Shown here piece after piece: positions 45,122-60,987 of a DNA stretch of 64,000 nt. Numbering within the stretch: position 1 is the first letter of the stretch; each line of letters opens with the position of its first letter. A program made the position numbers and the translations under genes. The notes beneath the pieces are model-generated. The model was not told where the DNA came from and made no database searches. It saw only the letters and a list, made by a program, of their open reading frames with translations. The stretch lies in the NCBI RefSeq assembly GCF_003584565.2, contig NZ_CP031010.1:1612001-1676000 (forward strand). Reading direction: 5' to 3'. This DNA comes from Alteromonas sp. RKMC-009. GTDB taxonomy: Bacteria; Pseudomonadota; Gammaproteobacteria; Enterobacterales; Alteromonadaceae.

Positions 45122-45187
45122 AAGAAATGAATTTCTGCGATGAAACAAAGAGGAGAAATAAGAGTGGCTCCCCGCCCCGTCCTTACT

Positions 45188-45281
45188 GGGAACTATTAAC
45201 GTTCCATTCATCCAATTTCGCCGCAAACTCCCGCCATCATTGAGAAAGGCGGCATAAGGACAATTTCTTCTAATAGTTCCC
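45188..45281. repeat. 11-bp inverted repeat at the host/prophage junction
   Basis: GGGAACTATTA (45188-45198) and TAATAGTTCCC (45271-45281) are exact inverted copies 72 bp apart. The left copy also forms GGAAC-TATTAAC-GTTCC (45189-45205), and a CCGCC/GGCGG pair lies between the arms. The area upstream of terS and next to a G/C-rich run (45164-45180) could be a cos/packaging site, an attachment region or an operator. Confidence 0.6.
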
Positions 45282-45292
45282 CTGTACCAAAG

Positions 45293-45309
45293 TTGCCCTA
45301 ACCCTGCTG
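45293..45309 (+). promoter_or_regulatory. Phage 17-bp motif, copy 1 (before terS)
   Basis: TTGCCCTAACCCTGCTG, exact copy, 24 bp before the terS ATG. It contains the direct repeat CCCTA-ACCCT. A CGACA element follows further downstream, as in copy 3, though the fit is weaker. Confidence 0.7.
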
Positions 45310-45333
45310 CTGGGGCAAAACGACAATACAGAC

Positions 45334-46287
45334 ATGAAAACAGATAAAACGCAGTATCTTCAACCGCGGACGGACATTACATTTCGATGTGATGCCTGTC
45401 AACACGTCTGGGATGCAGAGCCGGACGAAGTAAAAGAGGATAGCGGATTATCTCATCCTTACCGGTATTTTGCTGATTGTCCGGAGTGTGATTCCCGTTC
45501 TCAGCAAATACCCTGGCAGCGCGGTTTATTCTCCAGCTATGTAAAAAGCACTGGCCCTAAAACGCTGGAAGGTAAAGCGGCATCAGCTGCAAACCTTGAT
45601 GGCCACCCAACGCCTGAAGAGGCAATGCGAACCCGCTTCAATGCGCTAAAGCACGGCGCAGCCGCCAAGCAGGCAATGTACTTTCCGGCTAAACCCGGTA
45701 AATACGATGCCTGTAAAACCTGCACGATTGATTTTGAATATTGCGCCAGTCAGGTTGCCTGTGCCCGCCGCACAGAACTGTTTATGCGCCATCTCATTGC
45801 GATAGAAACCAATGACCCCAGAGTGCTGCGCGAACATCACGCCATTACTCAGGCCAATCTGGCCACGCTGATGGATGACATGTTGCTCAGCGTGATCAGC
45901 AAAGGGGTATTGTTAGAATCTCCAGCTTATGCATTCGATAAAGACGGTAACTTCCATTTAGCGCAGTACATTGATGATGAAACCGGCCAACGCCGCACCA
46001 TCATGGATGCCAAAGCCAACCCGCTGCTGAAACATATTTTTGATCTGATGAGTAAAAACAACCTGTCGCTTTCTGACCTCGGCATGACACCAAAAGTACA
46101 GGAAGAAAACGAAATTCAGATGGGCCGGTTACAGCAGGATGACAAACAGAAGGCTGATTTGCTCAGTTTCCAGGAGTCTCAGGCAAAGAGTCTGGAGAAT
46201 TTGCAGCAGATGCTGAAGAACTCACAGGATGCACTGAAGAAAGATCCTATCCTAATCGAACACCAGCAAGCGAACGGCGATGGCTGA
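45334..46287 (+). CDS. Phage terminase small subunit-like protein with cysteine clusters
   Basis: The 317-residue protein sits directly before the large terminase gene. It has an N-terminal zinc-ribbon-like pattern (Cys19, 22, 49, 52), the TGPKTLEGKAASAANLDGH and NALKHGA segments frequent in small-terminase-type proteins, a second cluster C-x2-C-x6-C-x5-C (Cys127, 130, 137, 143), and a Gln-rich helical C-terminus. Small terminases recognise phage DNA for packaging. The assignment rests on position and on the TGPKT/LKHG segment. Confidence 0.7.
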   Translation: MKTDKTQYLQPRTDITFRCDACQHVWDAEPDEVKEDSGLSHPYRYFADCPECDSRSQQIPWQRGLFSSYVKSTGPKTLEGKAASAANLDGHPTPEEAMRTRFNALKHGAAAKQAMYFPAKPGKYDACKTCTIDFEYCASQVACARRTELFMRHLIAIETNDPRVLREHHAITQANLATLMDDMLLSVISKGVLLESPAYAFDKDGNFHLAQYIDDETGQRRTIMDAKANPLLKHIFDLMSKNNLSLSDLGMTPKVQEENEIQMGRLQQDDKQKADLLSFQESQAKSLENLQQMLKNSQDALKKDPILIEHQQANGDG

Positions 46288-47881
46288 ACGGGTTACAGCC
46301 AAAGAGCGGCGCAGACTGCAAAATTTGGCAGAAACGGAAATTCTGCGATACCAACATGACCATGCCCTGTGGCACAAACACGTTCATGATGTGACACTCG
46401 ACCCCATGCAGGTACTGAAGTGTCTGGAGATGGACAAACACCAGAATACTGTAGACAACAGCTGCCGCCGTACCGGTAAAACAGCAGTGAAAGAAATGTG
46501 GATACAGAAGTATCTGGCGTGCAACCCTGATCAGGAACTGGGCATCGTTGCCCCTAAAGAGGCGCAGAGTCTGGTAAACCTCGGGTATCACCTCGACGCA
46601 ATCCGCCGTTCCGACATTCTCAGTAATTTCATTGAATACCGTAACGGCCGTAAACAGATGAGCGACACGTATTACCGTTTCGCTAACCGCAGTATTGCGC
46701 GGGGTTACGGTATCTTCAGCCAGATAGACGGTGGTGACTTAACGATTGCCAGTATTGAGGAAGTGGACGACCTTGATCAGGAGCGTCTGAATTCCCGTTT
46801 CTTACTTACCATGGGGTCAACACGCCGGCTGGGTGCGGATGAAGATGCCAAGAATGATCCGATAATCCGGATTACCGGTGTATTCAAAGGTGCATCAGTA
46901 CTGTCTAATTTGCTTGAAACGAAAAAGTATCATCTTCTGCCTACAGTAGACTGTCATCTGGGAGTCCAGCTGGGCATTCTGAATGGCAAGTTTATCGACG
47001 ACATGAAAGTGCAACTTTCTCCGGAAGAGTACATTCGCCAGCTGCTCTGCATTAATACATCTTCCACTAACCTTATCTGGGAAAAATACATTCGTGCCGC
47101 CATTCAGACCGGTGCAAAAGTGAATGTTGAAATGGTGGTCCCCGAGCCCGGCAGCCGTTACAAAAAACGCGGCCTGCTCAGTTTCGGCTATGATGCCGCC
47201 GGTCACGGTGAATCGGCCAACGCATCGAAGCATGCTTTTATCGTGTCAGAACAGGTTGGAAACTACGTTGTGATCCTGTTCGCCAAAACGTGGGCACCCG
47301 GTACCGATGACACCGTTGTGAAAAATGACCTGCTGGCGTTCTGGCGTTACTTCCGTCCGGATTACGCTATCGGGGATGCTTACGGACTGGGTATGCTTAC
47401 CCAGCTGAATCACGACTTATTTGCCGAAGGGCTGACAGATATCAATATCCGTGCAGTGAATGATGGTGAGTCAAACGCCAGTGCGTGGAATGAATGGGCC
47501 TTTGCTCCTCTGCGTTTTGAAGGGTCAATGAAACACAACATGGCGCAGGCGCTGCGGGCTATATTTCATCATCTTCATGCAGTGATCCCTTACGTCGACC
47601 ATTTAAACCCAACCGGACTGGATGCCGAAAGCCTGGCGGTCAGCGATATGCAAACTTTCATTAAGCAGCTGTCGAACATTCGTCCTGAAGAAACAACAAA
47701 AAGCTATTCCAGCTACGTTATGGTGCTGAAGAAAATAGGCGATGACTTGTTTGATGCGGCCATGGCCAGCATCTGGGGTCTGGCCACGCGGGGTAACCCC
47801 AAGCCGGCCACAGTGGTTGCCACCACTTCACGTACCCGCGACGAACTGCTGGGCACTCAAATGTATATTGCGGGGAATTAA
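46280..47881 (+). CDS. Phage terminase large subunit
   Basis: The 533-residue packaging motor has an N-terminal ATPase with a Walker A-like CRRTGKTA (about residue 62) and Walker B ASIEEVDD (about residue 158), then a C-terminal nuclease-type domain beginning near FGYDAAGHG with acidic residues at DAYGLGML. It overlaps the preceding gene by 8 bases. It pumps DNA through the portal and cuts it. Confidence 0.88.
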   Translation: MAERVTAKERRRLQNLAETEILRYQHDHALWHKHVHDVTLDPMQVLKCLEMDKHQNTVDNSCRRTGKTAVKEMWIQKYLACNPDQELGIVAPKEAQSLVNLGYHLDAIRRSDILSNFIEYRNGRKQMSDTYYRFANRSIARGYGIFSQIDGGDLTIASIEEVDDLDQERLNSRFLLTMGSTRRLGADEDAKNDPIIRITGVFKGASVLSNLLETKKYHLLPTVDCHLGVQLGILNGKFIDDMKVQLSPEEYIRQLLCINTSSTNLIWEKYIRAAIQTGAKVNVEMVVPEPGSRYKKRGLLSFGYDAAGHGESANASKHAFIVSEQVGNYVVILFAKTWAPGTDDTVVKNDLLAFWRYFRPDYAIGDAYGLGMLTQLNHDLFAEGLTDINIRAVNDGESNASAWNEWAFAPLRFEGSMKHNMAQALRAIFHHLHAVIPYVDHLNPTGLDAESLAVSDMQTFIKQLSNIRPEETTKSYSSYVMVLKKIGDDLFDAAMASIWGLATRGNPKPATVVATTSRTRDELLGTQMYIAGN

Positions 47882-47884
47882 CAC

Positions 47885-49282
47885 ATGGGCATATTCAGTA
47901 AAATTTCTGGCATGCTGGGCCGTCATCCGTCCGGTGATGCGGTGGTATCACCTGAAAATGACCAGGCAAAAGAAAATGACACACGGGGCGGTACCACCGT
48001 TGACTCCGGTAATTACCTGCGCCGTATGTACGATGAGTTGTTTATCTCTCCGGAATATAAATCGTCAGTACTGAATATCCGGTTGATGGACAAACAGGAT
48101 GGCCGTGTAAAGAAAATTCACAAGCGCATGGCCCGCGATGCCACAAAGGGCGGTATTCGTCTGCAGTGGAAAGGTGCAGAGAATAAGCGGATTGCCAAAT
48201 TGTTCAAGCAGTGGCAAAAGCGGCTGGGGCTGGATAATGCACAAAAACTGCAGTCTGATGCACGGGGTGCAGTCATGGAAGGCCAGCTGGCGCTGCAATG
48301 GGTGATTAATAATCGCCGTGAGGTGACACTGGGTTTACGGATGCCGGGTGAAACTATGTATCCGGATACCGATGCCACAGGCCAGTTCAAAAGTACCCGT
48401 TCTGCGTATAAGCAACTGGATCCTGTCGGCGGGCATCAGGTCATTGCCGAATTTGCTTTCTGGCAGATTTCTATGGTCCGGCTGGACCCTGATAACTACG
48501 ATGATTACGGCGCACCTGGCCGCCCGTATCTGGATGCGTCCCGCAAGTCATGGAAGCAGCTCACCATGACAGAAGATGATTTGGTTATCCGCCGCCGCAC
48601 CCGCGCTCCCCAGCGCTTCAGTCATGTACTGGAAGGTGCCAAGGACGAAGAACTACAGAAATACAAAAATGAACAGGAAGCCGGCAAGGGCTTAATCACT
48701 ACTGATTTTTATTCGAATTACAAAGGTGGCGTAAACGCACTGGGCGGTGATGCCCAGTTAGATGCCATTGCCGATGTGGTGCATCTGCTTGATACATTCT
48801 TTGCCGGTGCACCCGCGCCAAAAGGCCTGTTCGGTTACTCGGAAGGGCTGAACCGTGACATTCTTGAAGACCTGAAAAAAGACTATTTTGAAGAAATAGA
48901 CGGTCTGCAGGACACATTATCCCAGGCATATTACGAAGGGTTCCGTTTGCAGCTGCTTCTGAACGGGATTAATCCGGATGCCTATGATTTTCAGGTGCAG
49001 TTCTCAGAACGTAAAACGGAAACCCGCAATCAGAAAGCGGATCTGGCACTGAAGTATCAGGCCATGGGCGTACCTGACTCGCTCATCTGGGAAACGGCGG
49101 GCCTTGAATCAGCAAACGTGATAGACCGCATCAAAGCCCAGAAAGCCAGCAAAGACCCGTACCCCGGCGAACAGGACGATGATGATGGTACCGTCACCAA
49201 TGACGGTACCAAACAACGTGTCAGTATTACTCCGGGAAATCAGCCCAAAGGGGAATCGGCCACCCATGTGTCAAACTCTTAA
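47885..49282 (+). CDS. Phage portal protein
   Basis: The 465-residue protein follows the terminase by 3 nt. It has helical segments such as ELFISPEYKSSVLNIRLMDK, a stem-like C-terminal region (GLFGYSEGLNRDILEDLKKDYFEEIDGLQDTL) and an acidic disordered tail. Portals form the dodecameric ring for DNA entry. Family membership is inferred from position, length and helical pattern. Confidence 0.78.
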   Translation: MGIFSKISGMLGRHPSGDAVVSPENDQAKENDTRGGTTVDSGNYLRRMYDELFISPEYKSSVLNIRLMDKQDGRVKKIHKRMARDATKGGIRLQWKGAENKRIAKLFKQWQKRLGLDNAQKLQSDARGAVMEGQLALQWVINNRREVTLGLRMPGETMYPDTDATGQFKSTRSAYKQLDPVGGHQVIAEFAFWQISMVRLDPDNYDDYGAPGRPYLDASRKSWKQLTMTEDDLVIRRRTRAPQRFSHVLEGAKDEELQKYKNEQEAGKGLITTDFYSNYKGGVNALGGDAQLDAIADVVHLLDTFFAGAPAPKGLFGYSEGLNRDILEDLKKDYFEEIDGLQDTLSQAYYEGFRLQLLLNGINPDAYDFQVQFSERKTETRNQKADLALKYQAMGVPDSLIWETAGLESANVIDRIKAQKASKDPYPGEQDDDDGTVTNDGTKQRVSITPGNQPKGESATHVSNS

Positions 49283-49544
49283 GCCACTGGAAGACAGAAT
49301 TATTATTTCTGACGATGCCAGAGAAAATGATTCCATTATTGAAGTGACAGACAAACGGCCGTCGAACATTGCCACTGTTCTTGCCGTGGGCCCGGGGCGT
49401 GTTCTGAAAAACGGCCGCCGTGCTCCGGTGGGGGTAAGCGTGGGTGATAAAATCTTCATCAGCTGCTACGCCGGATACCGCTACGAACTGGACAGCGGCA
49501 CAGTACGCATTATCCATGAAGCTGATGTGCAGGCGGTGTTATGA
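49266..49544 (+). CDS. Phage-encoded GroES-like co-chaperonin
   Basis: The 92-residue protein aligns with GroES: LKPLEDRIIIS at the N-terminus, then the flexible segment, then VLAVGPGRVLKNG and VSVGDKIFISCYAGYRYELDSGTVRIIHEADVQAVL. GroES caps GroEL in protein folding; several phages carry their own to fold the capsid protein. ATG 49266 lies inside the last 17 bases of the portal gene, and the stop overlaps the next gene by 4 bases. It is located just before the capsid genes. Confidence 0.85.
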   Translation: MCQTLKPLEDRIIISDDARENDSIIEVTDKRPSNIATVLAVGPGRVLKNGRRAPVGVSVGDKIFISCYAGYRYELDSGTVRIIHEADVQAVL

Positions 49545-50590
49545 GCGAACTGTCACGTAAAAAAGCAACCATCCGCCGCGCTCAGGCCCTCGCTCTGGCG
49601 GCTTACTTCGCACTGGACAAAGAAACCCTGTCCGCGCAGCAGGAACACTATGAAAGCAGCTTGTCTGAAATACTCACCGTACTGGCCTTTCATACAGACA
49701 GCTCAGGCATTGTGAGGTTACAGCAGTTGCAGGCGCTGCGCCGTGATGTGGAATCGGTACTGGATAACCTTGCCAGATTACAAACCTCGTTACTGAACAG
49801 CAGTATTCAGCAGGGTGCGGAAATAGGTACCCGTGCTTTCCAATCGTATAAAACTGTCGAAGCGGCTGTGGATATCAGCCAGCGCACTACACGGTATGTT
49901 CAGCAGTTTACCGGCGCTGACGGGCTGCAACTGTCTGATCGTCTCTGGATTGTTAACGACAGCAATAAAACTGCAGTGGTACGCGCTATCAACCGTGCCG
50001 TTATTCAGGGGCATTCTGCCAGTGAAGCAGCAGCGCAGCTGATCGCCAGTGGTGAAGTGCCGGCGGCGCAGATGCAAAATAAAGTGCAACAGGGCAGCGA
50101 ACAAAACATTGGCAATGTACTGAAGGCGCAGGCAAAGGATCCTGACGCGGCTTACTGGCAGGCCAGACGGTTGTTCCGTACTGAAATCAACCGTGCACAC
50201 GGCATGGCTTATCAGAACAGCCTGGCAGATGATGACGATGTGATCGGCACACGCTTTATGCTCAGCCCCAATCACCCCCGTGTCGATATTTGTGATATGC
50301 ATGCCACAGTGAACCGGTATGGCCTTGGCCGTGGCGTATATCCTAAAGGAAAAAGCCCGTGGCCGGCACACCCCAATACCTTAAGTTATGAAGAGGCGGT
50401 TTTCGAAGACGAAGTGTCAGAGGAAGACCGTTCGGGGAAAGAAGACCGCATCAGCTGGCTGGCTAATCAGCCCGGCAATATTCGGGTGGGCGTGCTGGGC
50501 GTGTACAAAAATAACCTGCTGCAGTCCGGTGTACTCAAAGAAACCATGATTAATTCAAAAGTCAGAGCGTTGAAAAAGCGCTTCGGATAA
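49541..50590 (+). CDS. Phage head morphogenesis protein, Mu F-like
   Basis: The 349-residue protein has a long helical N-terminal half and the C-terminal minor-head module with RTEINRAHGMAYQNS and SPNHPRVDICDMHA, typical of Mu gpF/SPP1 gp7-like proteins, which sit in the head near the portal. It follows the co-chaperonin with an ATGA overlap. Confidence 0.82.
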   Translation: MSELSRKKATIRRAQALALAAYFALDKETLSAQQEHYESSLSEILTVLAFHTDSSGIVRLQQLQALRRDVESVLDNLARLQTSLLNSSIQQGAEIGTRAFQSYKTVEAAVDISQRTTRYVQQFTGADGLQLSDRLWIVNDSNKTAVVRAINRAVIQGHSASEAAAQLIASGEVPAAQMQNKVQQGSEQNIGNVLKAQAKDPDAAYWQARRLFRTEINRAHGMAYQNSLADDDDVIGTRFMLSPNHPRVDICDMHATVNRYGLGRGVYPKGKSPWPAHPNTLSYEEAVFEDEVSEEDRSGKEDRISWLANQPGNIRVGVLGVYKNNLLQSGVLKETMINSKVRALKKRFG

Positions 50591-50594
50591 CCTT

Positions 50595-50611
50595 TTGCCC
50601 TAACCCTGCTG
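50595..50611 (+). promoter_or_regulatory. Phage 17-bp motif, copy 2 (before the capsid ORF)
   Basis: Exact copy of TTGCCCTAACCCTGCTG. After a 7-nt spacer it is followed by CTTGCCACACTG, similar to GTTGCGACACTG behind copy 3. The ATG of the capsid ORF is 48 bp downstream. Confidence 0.75.
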
Positions 50612-50659
50612 TTACCCCCTTGCCACACTGCTGACAGGTATTGTTAGAAGAGTGTGGAC

Positions 50660-53215
50660 ATGAGCCAACACAACAATCGTCGAATCCAATTGGAAGCACC
50701 TGCGGAAACCCGCACGGTGCGCTTTCTTGCCTCTGCAGTCTCGGTGGATGCCGAACGGCAGAGCAGTGTCGTTACGGTTACCCGCACCGGTCAGTTTTTT
50801 GACCCCCGGTACGGCCAGTTTGAAATTACCCCCGTGATGCTACAAAGCATGGTGGATAACTTCAATAAAGGCGTATTCGGTCAGGACATCTCAATTGACC
50901 GTGCGCACAATCCGGCTGACGGCGCGGCAGGTACCATCACACGCTTATTCCTGGACAGGAACAAACTGCGTGCAGAGGTGGCGTGGACACCCTTTGGTCA
51001 CGACCTGATCAAGCAAAAAGGGTATCGCTATCTGTCGGCAGAATTCATGGAGAATTTTGTCACCAATGAACACCCGTTCACTGAGCACGGGCCAACCCTG
51101 TTGGGTGCTGGCTTAGTTGTTCGTCCCTGTGTCAAAAACCTAGACCGGGTTGAACTCTCTGAAGGCGATGCTGCATTTACCGGCATGCAGCTTATCAGTG
51201 AGCAGCTCGCTACCGAACTATCCGAGGAATCAAACGTGAAAGAATTAATCAAATTGTTCACCACTGCGCTGCAGAATAAGAAACTCAGCGAAGCGGCTAT
51301 TAATAAGTGGGTTGCTACTGCAACAAATGCCCTTGAAACGGTTTCTGATGAAACCCAGCAAAGGCAACTGATGGCACAACTGCAGGAAACGGCGTTATCG
51401 CTGGCAGAATCTGCGCCTGAAACGGTACCGGTTATTAATTTGAGTGCGCCATCTGCCGGCTTATCGAAAGATGACGTTGTTGCATTGATGCAGCAAATGA
51501 AAACGGAAGAGGCCAAAGCACTCAGCGAAGCGCAGCAGAAGAAAGATGCGAACATTAAACTGTTCAGCGATCACATTACTGCCACCAAAGCGCTGTCTGA
51601 AGAAACCAAAGCCAAATTGCTGAAAGCGGCAGACCTTATCACCGGTGATATGACTGAAGGCCAGGTGAAAGCCATGGCAAACCAGCAAATTACCCTGGGT
51701 GAAGAACTGGACTCACAAACCAAACTGGCAGGTATGGGCTTTACCGGTGCACATGGCCCGATGGGTTCAGTCATGCTGGCATCCGGTCACAACGCAAATG
51801 CAATGAAGCTGGCACAGGATGTCCGTAAACAGTTAAAACTGACATCTGCATTTGCAAACGGGGCAATCCGTTTGTCTGATTCTGTTGACCCGTTCGTGGA
51901 TAACGTACTGACATTGTTTGATGGTCAGTATAACCAGCAACTGATGCGTGAACACAAAGTGCTCTCCGGCGAAGAAGGCAGCATGAGTGACACATCTTTA
52001 CCGTATGCCTTCCGCCGTGAAGTAATTCGTGAAGCGCTGCACGACTTAAACATTCTGCAGCTGGTTGCCACTACCACTGACCCGTCTGCCCAGACAACCA
52101 CCCAGATCCCTTACGAAGAGCGTAAAGCGTTCAATGGCCGTACTGATGGCCTGGTATTTGAACGCGGCGGTATTCCTAAGGCCGGCGTAAGTCAGAAAAT
52201 GGACACCGCGTACGTGAACGCCATGAAGATTGCGTTCAACGTGTCTAACGAAATGATGCACTTTACCCGCGTTTCCGGTGTGAACTGGGATGCATGGGGC
52301 CGCCATGTGGCAACCTGTTCACGTATTCTGCGTGAAATTGTGGTGCGCCGTCTGGCTAACGAAATGCTGCGTATGTCTGACAGCTTCAATGCAGGCACTG
52401 TCACCAGCGAGAACATTGCGTCACAACTGGATGGTTCAACCAGCCAGATTAAAACGGCCCAGTTCCCTGTTGTCCGTCCGCATCAGGTTTATGACCTTCA
52501 GGGTACGGCAGTGGGTTCTGCTTCTAATCCGCTGGTACTTACTGTTGACGGTGCGAACATTGCGCCATTCGACGGTACCGGTAAGCAGGCAACCGGCACT
52601 TACTATGTGATCACTAACGCCAACTTGGGTTACATCACACTGGTTGATGAAACCGGTGCAGCGGTCACACCAAATGCCTCTGCCGCCACGCTCAGCTACA
52701 GCTATGCAACCAATGTCAGCAAGTTTGATATTGACCTGCCGTCTGACACCAAGCTGGAAGCGCACTTAAACGGCCTGTTACGTAAAATTGGCAGCCGCAA
52801 GGCCACCATGAAAGACGACCGTTACATTACGCCGAACTTCCTGCTGATGAGCAACACCCTGAACGACACCTGCACTAACGCTGACCAGTTCGTGGTGAGC
52901 CTGAAGCGTGACGGTGCAGACACCAACAGCATGGGTGACCTTGAAAAAGTGAAAGGCTTGCCATCATGGGCCACTAACGCCCCGGGCATCGACTTAGGCG
53001 ATGAGCGTATTCTGATGGGTGAGCGCGGAACGTCTCACTACGTAGTAGCCAAAGCATTTGCGATTGGTGAAATGCAGGAAGGGCGCGACCCGGTAACCGG
53101 TGAAATGAACGGTACCAAAGAAGCATACGGTGAAGAATACAACGCGATTCATACACCCAAGCCGCTGGCGAACCGTTACACCTCTGTACTGGTTTATTCA
53201 GCAACGGGCCGTTAA
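50660..53215 (+). CDS. Fused phage prohead protease, scaffold-like region and major capsid protein
   Basis: One 851-codon frame joins three parts. Residues 1-180 resemble Mu gpI-type prohead proteases (RTGQFFDPRYGQFEITPVML, DRAHNPADGAAG, YRYLSAEF). Residues about 190-350 are helical and Glu/Lys/Gln-rich, like scaffolds. Residues about 380-851 look like an HK97-fold capsid protein (FANGAIRLSDSVDPFVDNV, then RVSGVNWDAWGRHVATCSRILRE). ATG 50660 is preferred to the GTG at 50654. An in-frame GTG at 51236 with its own ribosome site could give a 659-residue scaffold-capsid product. A terminator follows the stop. Confidence 0.8.
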   Translation: MSQHNNRRIQLEAPAETRTVRFLASAVSVDAERQSSVVTVTRTGQFFDPRYGQFEITPVMLQSMVDNFNKGVFGQDISIDRAHNPADGAAGTITRLFLDRNKLRAEVAWTPFGHDLIKQKGYRYLSAEFMENFVTNEHPFTEHGPTLLGAGLVVRPCVKNLDRVELSEGDAAFTGMQLISEQLATELSEESNVKELIKLFTTALQNKKLSEAAINKWVATATNALETVSDETQQRQLMAQLQETALSLAESAPETVPVINLSAPSAGLSKDDVVALMQQMKTEEAKALSEAQQKKDANIKLFSDHITATKALSEETKAKLLKAADLITGDMTEGQVKAMANQQITLGEELDSQTKLAGMGFTGAHGPMGSVMLASGHNANAMKLAQDVRKQLKLTSAFANGAIRLSDSVDPFVDNVLTLFDGQYNQQLMREHKVLSGEEGSMSDTSLPYAFRREVIREALHDLNILQLVATTTDPSAQTTTQIPYEERKAFNGRTDGLVFERGGIPKAGVSQKMDTAYVNAMKIAFNVSNEMMHFTRVSGVNWDAWGRHVATCSRILREIVVRRLANEMLRMSDSFNAGTVTSENIASQLDGSTSQIKTAQFPVVRPHQVYDLQGTAVGSASNPLVLTVDGANIAPFDGTGKQATGTYYVITNANLGYITLVDETGAAVTPNASAATLSYSYATNVSKFDIDLPSDTKLEAHLNGLLRKIGSRKATMKDDRYITPNFLLMSNTLNDTCTNADQFVVSLKRDGADTNSMGDLEKVKGLPSWATNAPGIDLGDERILMGERGTSHYVVAKAFAIGEMQEGRDPVTGEMNGTKEAYGEEYNAIHTPKPLANRYTSVLVYSATGR
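51224..51238 (+). promoter_or_regulatory. Internal ribosome site and GTG start for the scaffold-capsid part
   Basis: GAGGAA (51224-51229) precedes an in-frame GTG (51236-51238) by 6 nt, right where the protease-like part ends and the helical region starts (VKELIKLFTTAL). Confidence 0.55.
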
Positions 53216-53232
53216 TCCGGTTCACTTACCCC

Positions 53233-53261
53233 AAAAGGGCAGGCATTTGCCTGCCCTTTTT
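53233..53261 (+). terminator. Terminator after the capsid ORF
   Basis: AAAAGGGCAGGCA (53233-53245) pairs perfectly with TGCCTGCCCTTTT (53248-53260) around 2 nt, giving 13 bp plus T residues. It sits between the capsid gene and the next phage gene. Confidence 0.88.
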
Positions 53262-53274
53262 CATGGAGCGCATT

Positions 53275-53706
53275 ATGCAAAAGCTATTTACCAACAACAC
53301 TGACAAAATTGTTTTTGAAAGCGGTGTACTTATTCCCCCGGGTGAAAGTCGTCCTGTAACGGTTATTCCCTCTTCATCAAAGAAAAAATTCGACCCTGTT
53401 CCCATTTTGGACAGACCTGTAAATGCATTAGAGAATAGTCTGGCTGGTTTAACATTGGACCAGCTTAATCAGGTGAAGGGCGCGGAAGAAAGTGGCGCAA
53501 ACCGTAAAACGGCCCTGACTCTGATTAGTCAGGAAATCGAAAAACGGGAATATGACGCGGAATTAAGTGATTTCGCCAGAGAACTGTCTTCAGTGACCAA
53601 TCTGGACGAATTATTACTTGCAGTTGCTGACGATGAAGCCAAGGTAGCCATGGTGGAACAGGAACTACAATCCCGCGCAGAGAAAACTAAAGATGACAAT
53701 AAGTAG
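53275..53706 (+). CDS. Phage protein of unknown function (head-tail region)
   Basis: The 143-residue protein has an N-terminal small beta-rich part (MQKLFTNNTDKIVFESGVLIPPGESRPV) and a helical, acidic C-terminal part. ATG 53275 is preferred to ATG 53263 because GGAGCG then serves as its ribosome site. The stop overlaps the next gene by 14 bases. It lies just behind a terminator, so it depends on readthrough. No family recognised; position suggests a head decoration or connector role. Confidence 0.65.
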   Translation: MQKLFTNNTDKIVFESGVLIPPGESRPVTVIPSSSKKKFDPVPILDRPVNALENSLAGLTLDQLNQVKGAEESGANRKTALTLISQEIEKREYDAELSDFARELSSVTNLDELLLAVADDEAKVAMVEQELQSRAEKTKDDNK

Positions 53707-54298
53707 AACCACACTGATTACAGCGGTGACGGATGCTTTGTCGGGCAGCGCTAAGCTGCTCGACTTCACCAGCGACAGCAGTTTTGCCGATACCATGATT
53801 GATAACGCACTGGATGCACTGGCGAAGCTGGCCCCTAACACCGGTATCGATACTATTACGTTGCAACCCAATGTGCTGACGTATGCCGCCCCGGCAGATG
53901 CCTGGGCATACAAGTCTTCACCGTGGGGGACAGAACAGAATGTAGCGCCGTGGGAATCGGGGTTTGTGTCCAGACTGCCCAACGTGGAAATGAACAACGG
54001 CAACCTGTATTTCAGTTTTGCCCCGACCGCCAAAATGCTGGCCAGCCTCGGCAGCAGCTTCACTTATTATTACTACGCCACTTATGCCTACGATGGCACC
54101 ACCATTACGGTTGAGCCACGCAAACAGGGATTATTGTTACTGCTTTGCCAGATGGAGTGCATGAAAGCGCTGATGATCCGTGAAGCCGGTACACAGGTGA
54201 CAGCGAAAACATCAAACGGCCGCATTCAGTTCGGCAGCCCGAAAAAGGCTTACGACATTCTGGATAGTGAAGCCAGCGCACTGGCCCGTTCGCTATGA
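53693..54298 (+). CDS. Putative phage head-tail connector protein
   Basis: The 201-residue protein begins inside the preceding gene and ends 4 bases inside the next. The sequence starts with helical segments (TLITAVTDALSGSAKLLDF) and later has LLLLLCQMECMKALMIREAG. Placed between capsid and gp10-like genes, it fits an adaptor/connector, but no motif proves this. Confidence 0.6.
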   Translation: MTISRTTLITAVTDALSGSAKLLDFTSDSSFADTMIDNALDALAKLAPNTGIDTITLQPNVLTYAAPADAWAYKSSPWGTEQNVAPWESGFVSRLPNVEMNNGNLYFSFAPTAKMLASLGSSFTYYYYATYAYDGTTITVEPRKQGLLLLLCQMECMKALMIREAGTQVTAKTSNGRIQFGSPKKAYDILDSEASALARSL

Positions 54299-54792
54299 AT
54301 GAAGTGGTGCTGCAGCTGAACACCCGTGCTCTGCTGAATTATTTGCAGAAGAGCATGGGAGATATCGACGCTACTGCAGCGAAGATATTACGCCGTGGTA
54401 CCAATGAAGGGGTACGTGAAGCAAAGCGTGCTGCGCCTAAAGCAGAGTCAACGCTGACAAATTCAATAAACGGTAAACAGGTTTCTTTAAGTCATCAGCA
54501 AATCGTTGCCGGCGCTCATTACTCAGCGTATGTGGAAAAAGGTACGAAGAAAGGTGGCTGGGTACCGGAACAAACACTGATGGACTGGCTGAATGTAAAG
54601 AACATCACACCCGCCGACAGTGAAATGAGCATGGAAGAACTGGTGTACCTGATCCAGACAAAAATTTTCTATCACGGCACACAGGCTCAGCCTTTCATGA
54701 AACCAGCAGCAGAACATGTACGAAAAATACTGCCGGCCACTGCAGTTCGTGTTTTGAAAAATGACTTAGATATTCGGAATGCTAAAAGATGA
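54295..54792 (+). CDS. HK97 gp10-like head-tail completion protein
   Basis: The 165-residue protein shows the gp10-like pattern: LLNYLQKSMGDIDATAAKILRRGTNEGVREAKRAAP, then GAHYSAYVEKGTKKGGW and AQPFMKPAAEHVR near the end. These proteins close the head-tail joint or help tail assembly. It overlaps both neighbours by 4 bases. Confidence 0.8.
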   Translation: MNEVVLQLNTRALLNYLQKSMGDIDATAAKILRRGTNEGVREAKRAAPKAESTLTNSINGKQVSLSHQQIVAGAHYSAYVEKGTKKGGWVPEQTLMDWLNVKNITPADSEMSMEELVYLIQTKIFYHGTQAQPFMKPAAEHVRKILPATAVRVLKNDLDIRNAKR

Positions 54793-55196
54793 AGCCATCT
54801 GACAACCTCAACAAGATAAAAGCCGATCTGCAATCACTGGTACCGACTGCGTATATCACCCGCAGCTATGAAGAACTGAACACCCGCGAAAATGACTCAC
54901 GCCCGATTTATGCGGTGGTGTCTGCCGGCTTTCCCCGTTTCGGTGACTGGTTGCGCACTAACGACCGCAACCATAAATTTATGATCATCGCCCAGCAATG
55001 GGTCAATGACACCGTAACCGGTGAAGAGCGGGAAGAAATGGAATTCGCCATGCTGGATATCATCACCACGCTGGTTCAGCAGGACGGTGTATCCGGCGAT
55101 GAAACCAATATTGAAATTACTGAAGCCCACACATCCAGACAGATGGATCCTAATCATGCCTGGGTAGTGGCAGAACTGCAATTTAACGACCTGTAA
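54789..55196 (+). CDS. Putative phage tail terminator/completion protein
   Basis: The 135-residue protein has an alternating helix/strand layout with FPRFGDWLRTNDRNHKFMIIAQQWV and EMEFAMLDIITTLVQQDG, resembling tail terminator proteins of siphoviruses in size and position (directly after the gp10-like gene, before the tube). Not proven by motif. Confidence 0.6.
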   Translation: MKPSDNLNKIKADLQSLVPTAYITRSYEELNTRENDSRPIYAVVSAGFPRFGDWLRTNDRNHKFMIIAQQWVNDTVTGEEREEMEFAMLDIITTLVQQDGVSGDETNIEITEAHTSRQMDPNHAWVVAELQFNDL

Positions 55197-55200
55197 GAAT

Positions 55201-55217
55201 TTGCCCTAACCCTGCTG
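55201..55217 (+). promoter_or_regulatory. Phage 17-bp motif, copy 3 (before tail genes)
   Basis: Exact copy of TTGCCCTAACCCTGCTG. It is followed, after 7 nt, by GTTGCGACACTG. The next ATG is 43 bp downstream. Confidence 0.75.
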
Positions 55218-55260
55218 AACACCTGTTGCGACACTGGCCCAATCAAAAAAGGGGGCCAGT

Positions 55261-55464
55261 ATGCCTGTTATCAAAAATTCCACATCCAAACCGGTACGCA
55301 GTGCCGGTGTCGATTTTAAACCCGGTGAAAACAAGTTTGCTGACGGTGCGCTAACACCTGCTCAACTGGCGCAAGTGAATGCTGCGCCGGCACTGGAAAT
55401 TATTGCGGTACCAGCGGATGAAAAAGCCGCGCTGCCACAGAAATCACAGGAGTCCAAAGCATGA
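55261..55464 (+). CDS. Small phage protein of unknown function
   Basis: The 67-residue protein has a Lys/Pro-rich start and the segment FKPGENKFADGALTPAQLAQVNAAPALEI. AGGGGG precedes the ATG at good spacing. It is the first gene after motif copy 3 and overlaps the tail tube gene by 4 bases. Similar short proteins precede tail tube genes in Mu-like phages, but I cannot name the family with certainty. Confidence 0.65.
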   Translation: MPVIKNSTSKPVRSAGVDFKPGENKFADGALTPAQLAQVNAAPALEIIAVPADEKAALPQKSQESKA

Positions 55465-56408
55465 GTGCGACTTTCCAGAAGTACAAAGTAAAACGTCTGC
55501 TGCTTACCATGGCCGTGTTTGCGTCCGGTCAGAGCTTAACGGTAGGTGAAGATTACATCGCTGCGGGCCAGACGCCGGTTCATATTCAAACCAAGAATGC
55601 CACCCTGACCCTCAATGTCGATACCCTCGACCGCGAACTGGACGATGCCACACTGGGTTATAAGCCTCAGATGCTGGTTGGCCAGCACTTCGAAATCTCT
55701 ACGGAAATTGAAGTGGCCGGTGCCGGTACCGCAGGCAATGCGCCGGTATATGGCGGCATGTTCAAAACGGCAGCTTTCGGTGAAACGCTGAATGCCGGTA
55801 CGGATGCCACTTACGAACAGCTGGACGATGATAGCTGGCCGGATGCCACGTTCTACTTTTTCCATGCTGGCCGGAATCACAAATTGCTGGGTGCCCAGGC
55901 TAACATCAGTTGGTCGCTGGCGAACGGTGCAGTGCCTACCTATACGCTGACCATCAAAGGCATTTATGGCGGGGTACTGGCGGCAACCATGCCAACACCG
56001 TCATTCAATCAGATCACGCCGGTGAAAGTGGGCAGTCAGTACACCACGTTCATGCTGGACGGCACAGAATACGCCATGATCAATTACTCCTGTGACCAGT
56101 CGATGGAAGTGAATTACACCGACATTCCGGGCTATGAAGGCATCAGTATTGATGACATCAAGCCGGAAGGCTCTATCGAAATTCTGGCGCCGGAACATGG
56201 TGATTTCGATCCGTTTGCGCTGGTTACCAGCGAAGCACAAACATTCATGCCGGTGTCGTGTGTGCACGGCGGTACTGCCGGCAACATCGTCACGTTCTCA
56301 AACCCCCAAATTCAAATCCTTGGCGTCAGTTACGGTGAATTTGAAGGTAAACGCACCTTCATTCTGCCCTACGGCGGCATTGGTAAAAACACAGTTACGG
56401 TGGCCTGA
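55461..56408 (+). CDS. Phage major tail tube protein
   Basis: The 315-residue protein is rich in beta-strand segments and follows the head-tail genes, immediately before the tail chaperones; size and position match siphovirus tube proteins. It would polymerise into the hollow tail tube around the tape measure. The C-terminal part (VSCVHGGTAGNIVTFSNPQIQIL) may be an extra Ig-like or tube-end domain. Its stop overlaps the next ATG by one base (TGATG-type). Confidence 0.75.
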   Translation: MSATFQKYKVKRLLLTMAVFASGQSLTVGEDYIAAGQTPVHIQTKNATLTLNVDTLDRELDDATLGYKPQMLVGQHFEISTEIEVAGAGTAGNAPVYGGMFKTAAFGETLNAGTDATYEQLDDDSWPDATFYFFHAGRNHKLLGAQANISWSLANGAVPTYTLTIKGIYGGVLAATMPTPSFNQITPVKVGSQYTTFMLDGTEYAMINYSCDQSMEVNYTDIPGYEGISIDDIKPEGSIEILAPEHGDFDPFALVTSEAQTFMPVSCVHGGTAGNIVTFSNPQIQILGVSYGEFEGKRTFILPYGGIGKNTVTVA

Positions 56409-56725
56409 TGAAACTGCAAATAGTCAAAAAAGAAAGTGTGGTATGGCCGGTGACTGTGAATGTTCCGGCTGATGGCGGCGGTACCGAGCAACACAAGTTT
56501 TTTGCCCGCTTTAAGCGCCTGTCAGAAGAGGAATTCGACAGCGTGTCAAAAGGCGGTCAGAACCTGCTGCTTAAGAAAGTGGTGATGGAAGTAGGTGACA
56601 CGGAAAAGGACATGGAAGTCGTCTCCGCTGCTGATCACAAAGAGCTGCTGGCAGACACCAATTATCGCGTTGGCCTTTACAACGCTTACCTGCGGATGGA
56701 TGCCGGGGTAGAGGAAAAAAACTAA
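56408..56725 (+). CDS. Tail assembly chaperone (G-like, zero-frame product)
   Basis: The 105-residue protein contains an N-terminal beta-strand part and EFDSVSKGGQNLLLKKVVMEV, and ends in EEKN. It has the position of lambda gpG, between the tube and tape measure genes. It is extended by a -1 frameshift near its end, giving a longer GT-like protein of about 229 residues that helps load the tape measure. Confidence 0.8.
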   Translation: MKLQIVKKESVVWPVTVNVPADGGGTEQHKFFARFKRLSEEEFDSVSKGGQNLLLKKVVMEVGDTEKDMEVVSAADHKELLADTNYRVGLYNAYLRMDAGVEEKN

Positions 56726-56752
56726 CAGAGGCCGCCCTGTTCTGGGTCGGCC
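56716..56752 (+). promoter_or_regulatory. -1 programmed frameshift signal A-AAA-AAC with downstream stem
   Basis: The heptamer A AAA AAC (56716-56722) is in the correct phase (GAA AAA AAC) just before the zero-frame TAA. After a 7-nt spacer, GGCCG (56730-56734) can pair with CGGCC (56748-56752). The -1 frame stays open from CTA 56722 to the stop at 57094-57096. Confidence 0.85.
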
Positions 56753-57096
56753 CTTCTGTAACCAGCAAGGACAAAGACGAATACATTGCGCAGCTGCGTG
56801 ACGGCTACGGCATGACAGAGGCGCAAATTAAGGAGCACCTGCAACAAGATGATGACTTTCAGGATCGCACACTTGAACTGCTTCCGGAAAACCAGGCTGC
56901 TTTTTATTGGTTTCTGGATGTTGATGACCTCTGGATTTTTTCCGAAGGCATTCGTGTGGCGCTGGATATCCGCGCCGTTCTGGCAGATGCAGAAGCTATC
57001 GAACGCCGTTACACCAAACAAGATTACGTGAAGCTGCGGCAACTAAGCCGCCATGTAGTCGCTACTCTGGCAGAGCGATACCGTGAGCAAAAGTGA
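56722..57096 (+). CDS. Tail assembly chaperone, frameshifted extension (T-like)
   Basis: Read in the -1 frame after the slippery site, this adds about 124 residues (LTEAALFWVGPSVTSKDKDE, then the acidic and Trp-rich middle, ending AERYREQK) to the G-like protein. ATG 56812 is in frame, but the open frame runs right back to the slip point, so it is not an independent gene in the usual arrangement. The C-terminal half resembles DUF1799-type tail proteins. It overlaps the tape measure start by 14 bases. Confidence 0.75.
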   Translation, partial: LTEAALFWVGPSVTSKDKDEYIAQLRDGYGMTEAQIKEHLQQDDDFQDRTLELLPENQAAFYWFLDVDDLWIFSEGIRVALDIRAVLADAEAIERRYTKQDYVKLRQLSRHVVATLAERYREQK

Positions 57097-60000
57097 TTTA
57101 GACATCATGATCAACCTGCTGGCAAATACCAAAGGTATGCGCAAAGAGTATCAGCAGGCCATTACCGAGCAGGTTGCCCTGAATAAAGAACTGACCCGTG
57201 GTCAGTCTGCATCAGCAGGACAGGCTGCGGCATTCACGCTGGTTGAAGCCAGCGTGAAGAAACTGGACAACCATGTTCAGCAGCTGGTGAACCAACAGAA
57301 CCGGCTGAACAAAGAAATCAATGAATCCCGTCAGCAATCCACCACAGCCACAGCCGGCATTACTCAGTATGAAAATGCTTTGCAGGAAGTGGAACGCGAG
57401 CTGCGGCAGGTTATTGCACACCAGAACAACCTGAACAGCACCTTACGCAACACTGAGGTTAGCGGCAGAGCGGCCAGCCGGAATATTAAAGATATTGAAA
57501 CCAGCAGCCGCGGCTTAGGTGATGCCGTTCGCCCTCTGGCTGGCTATATGGCCGGTGTGTTCGGCGTGTTTGCCGCCACCAACGCTGCCGTGAACATCAA
57601 AGACACGCTGGCAGATTACCAGCAGTTCCGTACCCGGCTGCAGTACTTAAGCGAAGATACCCGCGACTACGCAAACAGCATGGCATTTCTGACGACTCTG
57701 GCTGAAGAACACGGTAAATCAGTACTTACCATGGGTGAAAGCTACGCGTCACTGGCGGCTCTTCGTAAAGGTGACATCATCGACCAGCAGCAACAGCAGC
57801 AGCTGATGACTGGCCTGAGTAACGCACAAAGCGCACTGGGCGTATCGACCGACCAGCTGGGCAACCTGATGTACGGTTTAGGGCAGGCATTGTCCCAGCC
57901 TAATATTCAGGCTCAGGAATTTAATCAGGTCATGGAACCGTTACCGGGCCTGATGCAGGCGATGACCCGTGCGGCCGGACTGCAAGGGCAAACATATCGG
58001 GATCTGGTACTGGCCGGTAAAGTGACCAGCGCCATGTTCCGTGACGACTTGATTAAAGCGCTGGGTGAGTATGACGGCGCGGCCAAAGCGAATATCAACA
58101 ATATTACCGCACAGGAAAACGCCCTTGAGAACCTGCGCGTTCAGACCATCGCTGCCTTTGAAGAGCCCATAAACAACGTATACGGCACGCTGCTTGAAAC
58201 CACGGCAGATGCAATGACATTTGTTCGGGACAATGCAGAAACACTCACCTCTGCAATCGAAACACTGACAACCGTGGGCCTGATCCGGGGCGTGGCTGCT
58301 GTTACCAATTACACGACAAGTCTGGGTAAAGAAGCTATTGCGAAAAACGCCAGCGCACAGGCTACGTTAATCGCAGCCAAACGGCAGCATGAGTACAACC
58401 TTTCTGTACAGGCAGGCGCTCAGCGCTCACTGGCAGTAGCCACATCTGATACAGCCAGAGCTGCAGCACTGACACGCCTGGCAAAAGCTAATCAGGCGGT
58501 GGTGGCCAGCCAGACGGCAGTGAATGTGGCCACAGCGCAATACGCAGTGGTTGGCAGAGCTGCTACAGCAGTAGCCCGCGGACTATGGGCCGCTATTGGC
58601 GGTATTCCGGGACTTATTCTGCTGGGGGCTTACGCGGTATATGAATTTGCCAGCAGCACTGATGAAGCCACATCCAAAACCGGTGACTTAAAAACAGAAA
58701 CTAAGGATTTAGCATCAGAGATTAACGACCTGATAGCCAAATATAAGCAGCTGGATGATGCCGGCAAAAATATCGAACTGAAGAAACTGGATGCGCAGGA
58801 ACTCTCTGCGCGTCAGAAAGTACTCGAGTTAGAAAACAAAATTCGTGAAACACGGGATAAGTATTACCAGCCTGGTACCGTCCGGTATCAGGAACCGGCT
58901 GAACTGGTTGCTTTGAGAAAGTCACAGGCCGAATTTCAAAAACTTGCCGACGACACGGCAAAGAAAAAAGCAGAACTGTTCAATATTGATTTATCCAGTG
59001 TCCAGTGGGTGAAACCAGACCCTGTTGTTGAAGTAAACAGTGAGCTGGAGAAGTTGCTGGCTAATCTGGAAAAACAACGTGCTCTGTATGGCGAAACGAG
59101 CGAAGCGGCAAAAGTTGCTTATGAAACCACCTATGGTTCATTAAAAAGCTTAACAGCAGAAGAGAAAGCACAGCTTATTCTGGCCGCATCAAAACTTGAT
59201 GCGAAAAAAGCTGAAGCAGATGCCAATCGCACTCTGCAGGCGGAAGTAGACAAACTGCTTGAGAAACACCACGAAGAATTGGAACTTTACGGCGATACCA
59301 GCCGGGAAGCACAGGTGCGTTACGACATCGAATACGGTGCTTTGAAGAACGTAAACGATGAGCTGAAGAAAAAACTGATCCTGCAGGCGCAGGAACTGGA
59401 CAACCTCGCAGAAGCAAAAACGATGCAAAGCAAGGTTGAACGTATTGCCGCCGCCACGCAAACCCCGACCCAGCGTGAGAACAGTACTTATCAGGAAAAC
59501 ATTATCACGCTGGAAACCTACCGTGATTCTCTGCCGGAAACAGACCTGACCAAACGACAGGAAATAAACCAGCTGATTGAAGCAGAGCAACGCCGGCATG
59601 ATCAGGTTCTCCGTGAAATTGAAGACAGCCGGAAAACTGACTTCGACATGATGTGGCAGGAATCTTTCGATCGCTTCGCAGCCGGTGTCGGGCAGGCAAC
59701 AGTTTCTGCACTTGATGACTCTGAGAATTTAGGTGATGGCCTGAAGAATGTCATTACTGCGGTGGGTAAACAGTCTCTGGCCACACTGGTTGAAATAGGT
59801 GTGAAAGAGGCAGGGAATTTCGCTATGCGGGCCTTGCTACGTAAAAGCGATCTGGCTGACGATGCAGCCACGCAAACAGCAGGTAATGCCCTTGCAGTGA
59901 CTACGGGGGTTACCACCGCTGCCGCGCTGACGGCAGCATGGACTCCCGCTGCTGCAATGGTATCGCTGGCAACAATGGGAGCCAATGCCGCTGCCGCCAG

Positions 60001-60385
60001 TGCCGGTATTACCAGCACTATGGCATTAACAAAAGGGTTGGGTTACGCAGGCATGTTCGACAATGGTGGCCGCATTCCTGCCGGCCAGTTCGGTATCGCC
60101 GGTGAGTTTGGTCCGGAAATCGTCAGGGGCCCTGCGTATGTTACCAGCCGCAAAGATACCGCTTCTATGCTCAGTTCTGCGCAGTCGCAAACCAGCGCGG
60201 GCAGCACAGTCGTTAATTATACAGATAACTCCGTTACCAACATTTCCGGCGGCAACACTGATGAAGTTGTTGAGAAAGTACGCCCCATGCTTAAAGCACA
60301 GAAAGAAGAAACATTAGCTGAAGTCGGTATGCAACTTAAGCGCGGCCGTGGTGTTGTGTATGACGGACTGAGGGCTTCACGATGA
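57083..60385 (+). CDS. Phage tail tape measure protein
   Basis: The 1100-residue protein has long coiled-coil segments, a tape measure domain around residues 190-330 (LSEDTRDYANSMAFLTTLAEEHGKS, TGLSNAQSALGVSTDQLGNLMYGLGQAL), hydrophobic segments near residues 500-525 and 950-990, and a Ser/Ala-rich end. It sets tail length, at about 1.5 angstrom per residue giving roughly 165 nm by the family rule. It starts at GTG 57083 and is the largest gene in the phage part. Confidence 0.9.
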   Translation: MSKSDLDIMINLLANTKGMRKEYQQAITEQVALNKELTRGQSASAGQAAAFTLVEASVKKLDNHVQQLVNQQNRLNKEINESRQQSTTATAGITQYENALQEVERELRQVIAHQNNLNSTLRNTEVSGRAASRNIKDIETSSRGLGDAVRPLAGYMAGVFGVFAATNAAVNIKDTLADYQQFRTRLQYLSEDTRDYANSMAFLTTLAEEHGKSVLTMGESYASLAALRKGDIIDQQQQQQLMTGLSNAQSALGVSTDQLGNLMYGLGQALSQPNIQAQEFNQVMEPLPGLMQAMTRAAGLQGQTYRDLVLAGKVTSAMFRDDLIKALGEYDGAAKANINNITAQENALENLRVQTIAAFEEPINNVYGTLLETTADAMTFVRDNAETLTSAIETLTTVGLIRGVAAVTNYTTSLGKEAIAKNASAQATLIAAKRQHEYNLSVQAGAQRSLAVATSDTARAAALTRLAKANQAVVASQTAVNVATAQYAVVGRAATAVARGLWAAIGGIPGLILLGAYAVYEFASSTDEATSKTGDLKTETKDLASEINDLIAKYKQLDDAGKNIELKKLDAQELSARQKVLELENKIRETRDKYYQPGTVRYQEPAELVALRKSQAEFQKLADDTAKKKAELFNIDLSSVQWVKPDPVVEVNSELEKLLANLEKQRALYGETSEAAKVAYETTYGSLKSLTAEEKAQLILAASKLDAKKAEADANRTLQAEVDKLLEKHHEELELYGDTSREAQVRYDIEYGALKNVNDELKKKLILQAQELDNLAEAKTMQSKVERIAAATQTPTQRENSTYQENIITLETYRDSLPETDLTKRQEINQLIEAEQRRHDQVLREIEDSRKTDFDMMWQESFDRFAAGVGQATVSALDDSENLGDGLKNVITAVGKQSLATLVEIGVKEAGNFAMRALLRKSDLADDAATQTAGNALAVTTGVTTAAALTAAWTPAAAMVSLATMGANAAAASAGITSTMALTKGLGYAGMFDNGGRIPAGQFGIAGEFGPEIVRGPAYVTSRKDTASMLSSAQSQTSAGSTVVNYTDNSVTNISGGNTDEVVEKVRPMLKAQKEETLAEVGMQLKRGRGVVYDGLRASR

Positions 60386-60987
60386 GCAGTATTCCGGTTT
60401 TTCCCCGCCATATTTTGCCGGGTTCCCTCAAATTTCGCATTCAGCCTAACAGCCATGTGACAACCGGCCCCAACAGAATGAGTGAAGTGTGGGTACGCCC
60501 CGGAGCAATCTGGACGTTCTCGGCTACATTCACCAAAATTCGCTATACACCGGCCCGTGAGCTGGACACATTCATAGACAACCTCGACGGTTCAGCCGGC
60601 CAGTTCATGATGTGGGATTCCACGCACCGTCAACTGGGCGAGTGGGGCGGCACACCGGTGGTAAATGGAAACAATCAGTCCGGTACCGTGCTGACCATTC
60701 GCAATGCTGAGCCAAACAGCCTGATTGCCCCTGCCGGTGACCGTTTTCAACTGGATAACTATCTGTACAAACTGATGGAAGATGCGGTTGCAGACAGCAG
60801 CGGTAATTGCACACTGCGGTTCAGGCCGCAGCTGTTTACTGAGCCGACAGACGGCACAAGCCTTATCGTCACCGACCCCATGTGCAAAATGATGCTGCCG
60901 GATAACGCGCAGGGTCCGAATTTCGCCAGCCGCAAACTCATCCTGACTGATTTCACCATCAGCGGTTACACGAGTTTACGCCGATGA
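60382..60987 (+). CDS. Phage distal tail/minor tail protein
   Basis: The 201-residue protein starts within the end of the tape measure gene (4-base overlap). It has beta-rich segments (RMSEVWVRPGAIWTFSATFTKI, GQFMMWDSTHRQ) and a position matching lambda gpM/L-type or distal tail proteins. The exact family is uncertain. Confidence 0.65.
   Translation: MSSIPVFPRHILPGSLKFRIQPNSHVTTGPNRMSEVWVRPGAIWTFSATFTKIRYTPARELDTFIDNLDGSAGQFMMWDSTHRQLGEWGGTPVVNGNNQSGTVLTIRNAEPNSLIAPAGDRFQLDNYLYKLMEDAVADSSGNCTLRFRPQLFTEPTDGTSLIVTDPMCKMMLPDNAQGPNFASRKLILTDFTISGYTSLRR

Follow-up and report, generated by a model that had tools for sequence, protein, structure and literature searches.

Lambda CII binds paired TTGC repeats astride the –35 region (TTGC-N6-TTGC), and the SAS and ESAS elements of cluster K mycobacteriophages recur in one orientation before several genes of one phage, SAS adjoining the start codon. 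In phage Mu, the late promoters Plys, PI, PP and Pmom, which work with the activator C, deviate from consensus in both their –10 and their –35 elements (PMC4461284). The element bound by Mor and C is dyad-symmetric and, for Mor, lies at –51 to –36 (PMC4287176). T4 late promoters are TATAAATA, and in T4 the ribosome-binding site of genes e, soc, 49 and I-TevI is hidden in read-through RNA by a 5′ strand that derives from the late promoter region (PMC3014915). Here we analyze a 64,000-nt stretch of the Alteromonas sp. RKMC-009 genome (NZ_CP031010.1, positions 1,612,001 to 1,676,000 of the forward strand; hereafter the window), in which blocks of prophage structural genes are preceded by identical copies of a 15-bp box that very probably forms part of a set of late promoters. 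Like SAS and ESAS, the box recurs in a single orientation ahead of several genes of the phage; unlike SAS, it is followed by a –10 element and a predicted start point.

Box copies and anatomy of the probable promoters

The initial annotation had noticed a 17-mer, TTGCCCTAACCCTGCTG, in three intergenic gaps, and it indeed occurs exactly at 45293-45309, 50595-50611 and 55201-55217, always on the + strand and at the distances originally given from the next start codon (24, 48 and 43 bp from the ATGs at 45334, 50660 and 55261). The window holds no further match at up to three mismatches, and 100 shuffles gave a mean of 0.19 matches, none reaching three. When the search is extended to the whole prophage and the 5.01-Mb genome, a 15-bp core, TTGCCCTAACCCTGC, is found in five exact copies, all on a single strand, all within the prophage and none in host DNA: box 1 before terS (45293..45307, +), box 2 before the protease/capsid gene (50595..50609, +), box 3 before the tail block (55201..55215, +), and copies 4 and 5 outside the window at genome positions 1680035 and 1683330 (68035 and 71330 in window numbering). 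The closing TG of the 17-mer is limited to copies 1-3, and copies 2-5 lie a few nucleotides 3′ of a stop codon. The original observation was right but incomplete, as it lacked the two additional copies, the identity of a second element, the start of terS, the hairpins and a gene for a candidate regulator, all described below; the CCCTA-ACCCT direct repeat to which it pointed is present in the box of this phage but not retained in its relatives’ CCCTAACGCTG and CCCTAACTTTG.

All five copies belong to late units, and no box was found at up to two mismatches near the early genes or the repressor of the prophage. Among 395 genomes of the family searched, three contain the exact core: RKMC-009 itself, L052, whose single copy is identical over the stretch compared to the capsid promoter of G404 (locus L076), and L053, where the core stands without a –10. 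Judged by titles and abstract openings, none of the papers listed in literature searches describes the element, subscription papers being outside the scope.

A second constant element lies downstream. When positions are numbered from the first T of the box (index 0), copies 1-5 carry GACAAT, CACACT, GACACT, CAGAAT and CACGAT at index 29-34. Across 23 non-redundant sites of the phage and its close relatives (the close group; 32 distinct 48-mers before removal of near-duplicates), the hexamer takes the form xAxxxT, with T at index 34 in 23/23, A at 30 in 22/23, A at 32 in 21/23 and A or C at 33 in 23/23, while an A....T pair at any other offset is present in at most 7 of the 23. The second and last bases of the hexamer, which carry the most weight in a σ70 –10 element, are also the two best kept here. 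The hexamer is often TG-extended (T at index 26 in 14/23, G at 27 in 15/23), and index 41, the expected +1 at 7 nt past the hexamer, is A in 17 of the 23 sites. As a control we inspected 38 further single core matches (36 viral stretches, 2 genomes), five of which have the A and T in register, or 4/37 seemingly unrelated matches once the family member L052 is removed. The weaker shared element TTGC-ACACTG noted earlier after two of the boxes is genuine, and an extended –10 is the best reading of it.

By this fixed spacing, promoter 1 has its –10, GACAAT, at 45322..45327 (+) and a predicted +1 at 45334, the A of the terS ATG; promoter 2 has CACACT at 50624..50629 (+) and a predicted +1 at 50636; and promoter 3 has GACACT at 55230..55235 (+) and a predicted +1 at 55242, the last two with TGC just 5′ of the hexamer. 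For copies 4 and 5 the predicted starts are genome positions 1680076 and 1683371. The box would span about –41 to –27. No recognizable –35 hexamer is present, and a promoter scan found no consensus promoter at the three window boxes; an ordinary σ70 promoter with TTGCCC as its –35 was rejected, as the –10 starts 23 nt after TTGCCC, which is too far. A late promoter with an activator site, in line with the late promoter or activator site proposed in the initial annotation, is the best reading of the σ70-like –10 at fixed spacing and the favored A at the expected start.

Relatives of terL were collected at 16 loci from viral contigs and 25 loci from genomes. A box with up to three mismatches is found at 14 of the 16 viral loci, the exceptions being a 4.0-kb fragment (L062) and a distant locus (L071), and relatives carry it in the same gaps as boxes 1-3. 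Gap positions stay the same across relatives and the box sequence varies: all five copies are TTGCCCTAACCCTGC in the RKMC-009 phage, TTACCCTAACTTTGC is found in G400 (3/3 found) and before terS of L077, TTGCCCTAACGCTGC accounts for 2/3 copies in G396 and 3/4 in G401, the remaining copy being one base off in each, and G399 and G404 mix box types. Because the layout is kept and the box changed, the box is probably read by a phage-specific factor.

Distant phages have repeats of their own before terS and the capsid gene. At 15 distant loci having both terS and capsid segments, we sought 11-mers common to the gaps and then aligned the upstream regions locally against 100 shuffles. Eight loci (L071, L074, L084, L089, L090, L091, L093 and L095) beat the 96th of the 100 shuffles, and all of these except L074 and L095 beat every shuffle. 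The repeats are GTTCCCTTTTACTGTCG in L089, GCCATTCCCCTAGTAGTG in L090, ACAAAACCGGCCCTT in L093 and CCCCTTTTTTTGCC in L095, the last two occurring three times each; those before terS and the capsid gene in L084, L091 and L071 are looser. The –10 elements of these phages were aligned by eye before a formal check on seven of them (L074 left out), in which five of the seven show an A....T offset common to all their boxes, with 0.69 expected.

Boxes also accompany inserted genes. In G399 (38777) and L078 (14335), an inserted gene has its own box and xAxxxT. The gene behind copy 4 shares 46% identity with a gene of G404 that lies at another place and on the opposite strand, with a 2-mismatch box and TAAATT at index 29-34 in front of it. 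Extra genes sit where the box stands ahead of the capsid or tail block in L064, L078, L097 and G399 (38777-39046), and ahead of the tail box in L060, L070 and L075.

Leader hairpins and the terS start

At promoter 2, CCACACT (50623..50629, +), upstream of the predicted +1, can pair with AGTGTGG (50651..50657, +) just before the ATG at 50660; at promoter 3, ACTGGCCC (55233..55240, +) can pair with GGGCCAGT (55253..55260, +), which abuts the ATG at 55261. As in T4, the predicted hairpin has its 5′ arm at the start point or 5′ of it and its 3′ arm at the initiation region; unlike in T4, the lock is here a prediction, belongs to a temperate phage, concerns several structural and lysis units and appears at about half of the sites tested.

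The pairing was evaluated as a duplex between the 19 nt before the predicted +1, which are missing from the promoter’s own RNA, and the leader of the next gene. Complementarity is significant at 4/4 sites of the phage itself (p≤0.025) and at 10/19 of all sites (p<0.05), the sites not being independent and the arm window having been chosen after the hairpins were seen. The fairer number comes from one fixed geometry applied to other gene starts, where p<0.05 is reached by 9 of 18 box genes (the L078 site, part of the 19-site tests, being left out) and 26 of 234 other starts (Fisher 0.00014). Modeled accessibility of the initiation region gave a mixed picture: compared with promoter-initiated RNA, read-through RNA has the lower value at 16 of the 19 sites, the same value at one and the higher value at two. 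For copy 4 of the phage itself the accessibilities are 0.19 in read-through and 0.42 in promoter-initiated RNA, and the folds suggest a switch, in which the initiation region is paired in read-through RNA and the arm, once freed in promoter-initiated RNA, pairs elsewhere.

Stems persist among relatives as their sequences change. The lysis-end leader pairs ATACCCGAA with TTCGGGTAT in the RKMC-009 phage, AATAACACCAT with ATGGTGTTATT in G399, and GGTGTCATCAA with TTGGTGACACC, including one G-U pair, in G400, whose G-rich stretch falls within the loop and is thus not hidden by the hairpin. The tail leader likewise pairs ACTGGCCC with GGGCCAGT in the phage itself, CTAGCCC with GGGCTAG in G404 and GGACC with GGTCC in G400. 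Terminator-like hairpins, recognized by eye, end just 5′ of the box before the tail block in L059, L060, L070 and L075 and before the capsid gene in L090. The RKMC-009 phage has such a hairpin with a T run after its capsid gene (53237..53262, +), which is weak by itself because terminator-like hairpins are only mildly commoner in the region than in shuffles (27 versus 20.2 ± 4.2).

At terS, the predicted +1 coincides with the A of the ATG and there is no Shine-Dalgarno sequence. Anti-Shine-Dalgarno pairing at four terS starts amounts to 0.2, –1.5, 0.8 and –1.5 kcal/mol; for 102 genes longer than 150 aa the median is –4.4 kcal/mol, and 18% are weaker than –2. The coincidence of start point and start codon and the lack of a Shine-Dalgarno sequence suggest that the terS mRNA may be leaderless. 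Seven distant phages show a hexamer with A second and T last that ends 7-9 nt before the terS ATG as assigned here, a match made by eye and post hoc.

Candidate activator and rival explanations

A regulator encoded to the right had also been proposed, and a plausible candidate lies between the tyrosine and serine recombinase genes (genome 1698606-1699010): a gene for a 134-aa helix-turn-helix protein, which in the circular form is just upstream of the late block. Relatives are present in 20 of the 21 genomes or records searched, the best locus of each adjoining a tyrosine recombinase, a serine recombinase or terS, and the copy in phage yong1 is annotated ‘middle operon regulator’. Judged from sequence, this protein is the best candidate for the activator. 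It has no clear match in Pfam, PHROGs or NCBIfam, and ten members of its family scanned at E up to 1 gave no match to PF08765, the Mor/C family. A profile-profile comparison with Mor/C aligned 87 columns in order, an equivocal similarity (E 0.0026, probability 11.5%; 0.068 with two sequences only). The protein may work like Mu C. As in Mu, one phage activator would serve several late units, these units stand before head and tail genes, and the candidate is a small helix-turn-helix protein.

In Photobacterium and Vibrio phages (L175-L178, G413-G415), the relative of this protein is about 230 aa long and seemingly contains the domain twice, and in G414 its gene overlaps terS; the search for shared elements revealed no box in these phages. 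A second regulator, the XRE-type P0003 (genome 1696380-1696766, –), was rejected as the activator: it is present in just 10 of 22 records and not in G401, G402 (a 30.9-kb record) and G407, yet their loci L070, L064 and L097 have the CGC box.

We regard activator-dependent late promoters with the 134-aa protein as their activator as a moderately probable account of the whole. The 15-bp box would be the recognition site of the phage-encoded activator, which upon induction would recruit host RNA polymerase jointly to five promoters, serving terS/terL/portal, the protease/capsid gene, the tail, an additional late gene and the genes at the lysis end. The mRNA of terS would be leaderless, beginning at its own ATG. 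At many of the other promoters, the DNA just before +1 would encode the 5′ side of a hairpin that has its 3′ side at the ribosome-binding region of the next gene, so that read-through RNA would be poorly translated and RNA begun at the promoter free. The activator would most likely be the fast-evolving 134-aa protein.

A number of observations weigh against this account. As the 23 close-group sites stem from a handful of related phages, they are not independent; no A....T offset is common to the boxes of L090 or to those of L093; and 7 of the 15 distant loci (L080, L081, L082, L083, L086, L087 and L094) lack a shared element, among them the Vibrio/Photobacterium phages L080, L081 and L086, in which an activator relative is present and no box was found. 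The 134-aa protein is tied to the box by presence, position and divergence only. Unlike the sites of Mor and C, the box lies at about –41 to –27 and has no dyad in the close group; in L089, CGACA and TGTCG flank the box. With a wider arm, the number of significant box genes is 8/18, and read-through accessibility falls below the mean for shuffled arms at no more than 12 of the 19 sites and into the lowest 5% at seven. Left unexplained by the model are hairpins of terminator type, with T runs, that were seen by eye between box and capsid gene in L071 (6844), L089 (16582) and L093 (11155); they would point to attenuation, antitermination or a small RNA.

The promoters could be real and yet be activated by the CII-like protein of the prophage (CP76 family, Pfam PF06892; genome 1686237-1686746), which we consider unlikely. 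Its gene is present in 20 of 22 records, and the box of this phage, TTGC-N7-CTGC, places a pair astride the –35 region that is repeat-like in the close group, much as in lambda CII promoters. Against it, the spacing is N7 rather than N6, the TTGC pair is absent from the distant boxes, and the boxes stand at late rather than early or establishment genes; no match was found in G409 and G410, whose loci L090 and L093 have boxes, both being metagenome-assembled and maybe incomplete.

Quite unlikely, in our judgment, is a role of the box at the RNA level, where it would be bound or processed within intergenic mRNA beside the leader hairpins. The position of copies 2-5 just after stop codons, mostly followed by a hairpin, would fit such a role, but the fixed xAxxxT with a favored A 7 nt on is a signature of a DNA promoter, several boxes directly follow terminator-like hairpins (L059, L060, L070, L075 and L090), and the terS box is flanked by the end of a gene and, 41 nt on from its own first base, by an ATG that has no Shine-Dalgarno sequence. 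Little credence is likewise given to activation by another phage factor or by a host factor: in its favor, several further early genes are universal or unnamed; against it, a host factor leaves the change of box from phage to phage within Alteromonas unexplained. A scattered, stoperator-like repressor operator that silences late genes in the lysogen is hardly credible: asymmetric, oriented, intergenic and phage-specific repeats do recall those of cluster A mycobacteriophages, but all five copies stand at late units with none, at up to two mismatches, near the repressor or early genes, and a fixed –10 is unexpected of an operator.

Returning to the activator-dependent promoters, a wider generalization is put forward only tentatively, our doubts outweighing our confidence: a late regulon, not described before, of gamma- and betaproteobacterial phages, in which a helix-turn-helix activator family and its box change together in each lineage and up to five promoters are switched on at once, the first giving a leaderless terminase mRNA and many of the others holding translation locks. 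If this is true, read-through mRNA is kept untranslated and each block is translated solely from its own promoter. The parts of the system are of known kinds, namely the Mu late regulon and the T4 translation lock; we had not met their combination, the re-coined boxes or the unnamed regulator family before. For a phage family with nearly no named-phage relatives, the system supplies a circuit of late-gene control that can be put to the test. Boxes that have almost fully diverged over one conserved gene order form a natural set for studying change of specificity in an activator and its multiple sites, and the possible leaderless terS and promoter-embedded translation locks would be additional control layers, open to simple reporters.

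Prophage setting and gene order

Genes to the left of about 45.1 kb are on the – strand, gave only a few weak hits in a PHROGs scan and are read as host genes, which we take, from their sizes and order, to be the rnf/rsx operon. A 14-bp att core lies at 45160-45173 and again at genome position 1702309. Unit 1 begins with a probable terS (45334..46287, +; 317 aa), so assigned from its position before terL and its homology to the terS-position genes of relatives, followed by terL (46280, +), whose homologue in yong1 carries the annotation DNA packaging protein; neither product has a PHROG match, and the terL protein is matched by 1 of 50,697 phage records. Next come a portal-like gene (47885, +), a head morphogenesis gene (49541, +), the 851-aa head maturation protease/capsid-like gene (50660..53215, +; phrog_328, head maturation protease) and a neck gene (54295, +). 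The window part of the tail block, assigned by PHROGs, covers 55261..62023 (+) and runs on beyond the window; its genes start at 55261 (small), 55461, 56408, 56812, 57083 (tape measure), 60382 (distal tail), 60984 and 61616. Past the window follow tail-tip and other late genes, then repressor-like, CII-like, 210-aa recombinase-like, SSB and antirepressor-like genes, and after these the tyrosine recombinase, the 134-aa gene and the large serine recombinase, behind which box 1 and terS come in the circular form.

A very conserved G-rich element, GGGGTGGGGG(C/G)TCGGCA ... GGGGGGTGGGTACC, lies before or inside the 5′ end of the activator gene (L011 upstream of 8606, genome ~1698500; L158-L177). 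It reads in frame as GVGxR..GGGY in distant phages and is interrupted by stops in the close group. Several relatives also have phage-specific direct repeats 65-120 bp apart upstream of terS, which in L071 are beside the G-rich element. Possibly the element is a cos site and the repeats bind terminase.

Three genes of the prophage are recombinase-like. Two belong to the tyrosine type (210 aa, L010 15149-15781; 331 aa, L011 7172-8167) and have relatives in all ten other phages compared; the third is the large serine recombinase (genome 1700784). The att core sits within the 3′ end of the latter gene (window 45160-45257; genome 1700784-1702355, L011/L156), which the prophage splits into 523 codons running into host DNA at the right end and the last ~30 codons at attL, so that integration alters the C-terminus of the recombinase itself. 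Just beyond attR are two tRNA-Asn genes on the – strand (L156 314-390 and 409-485).

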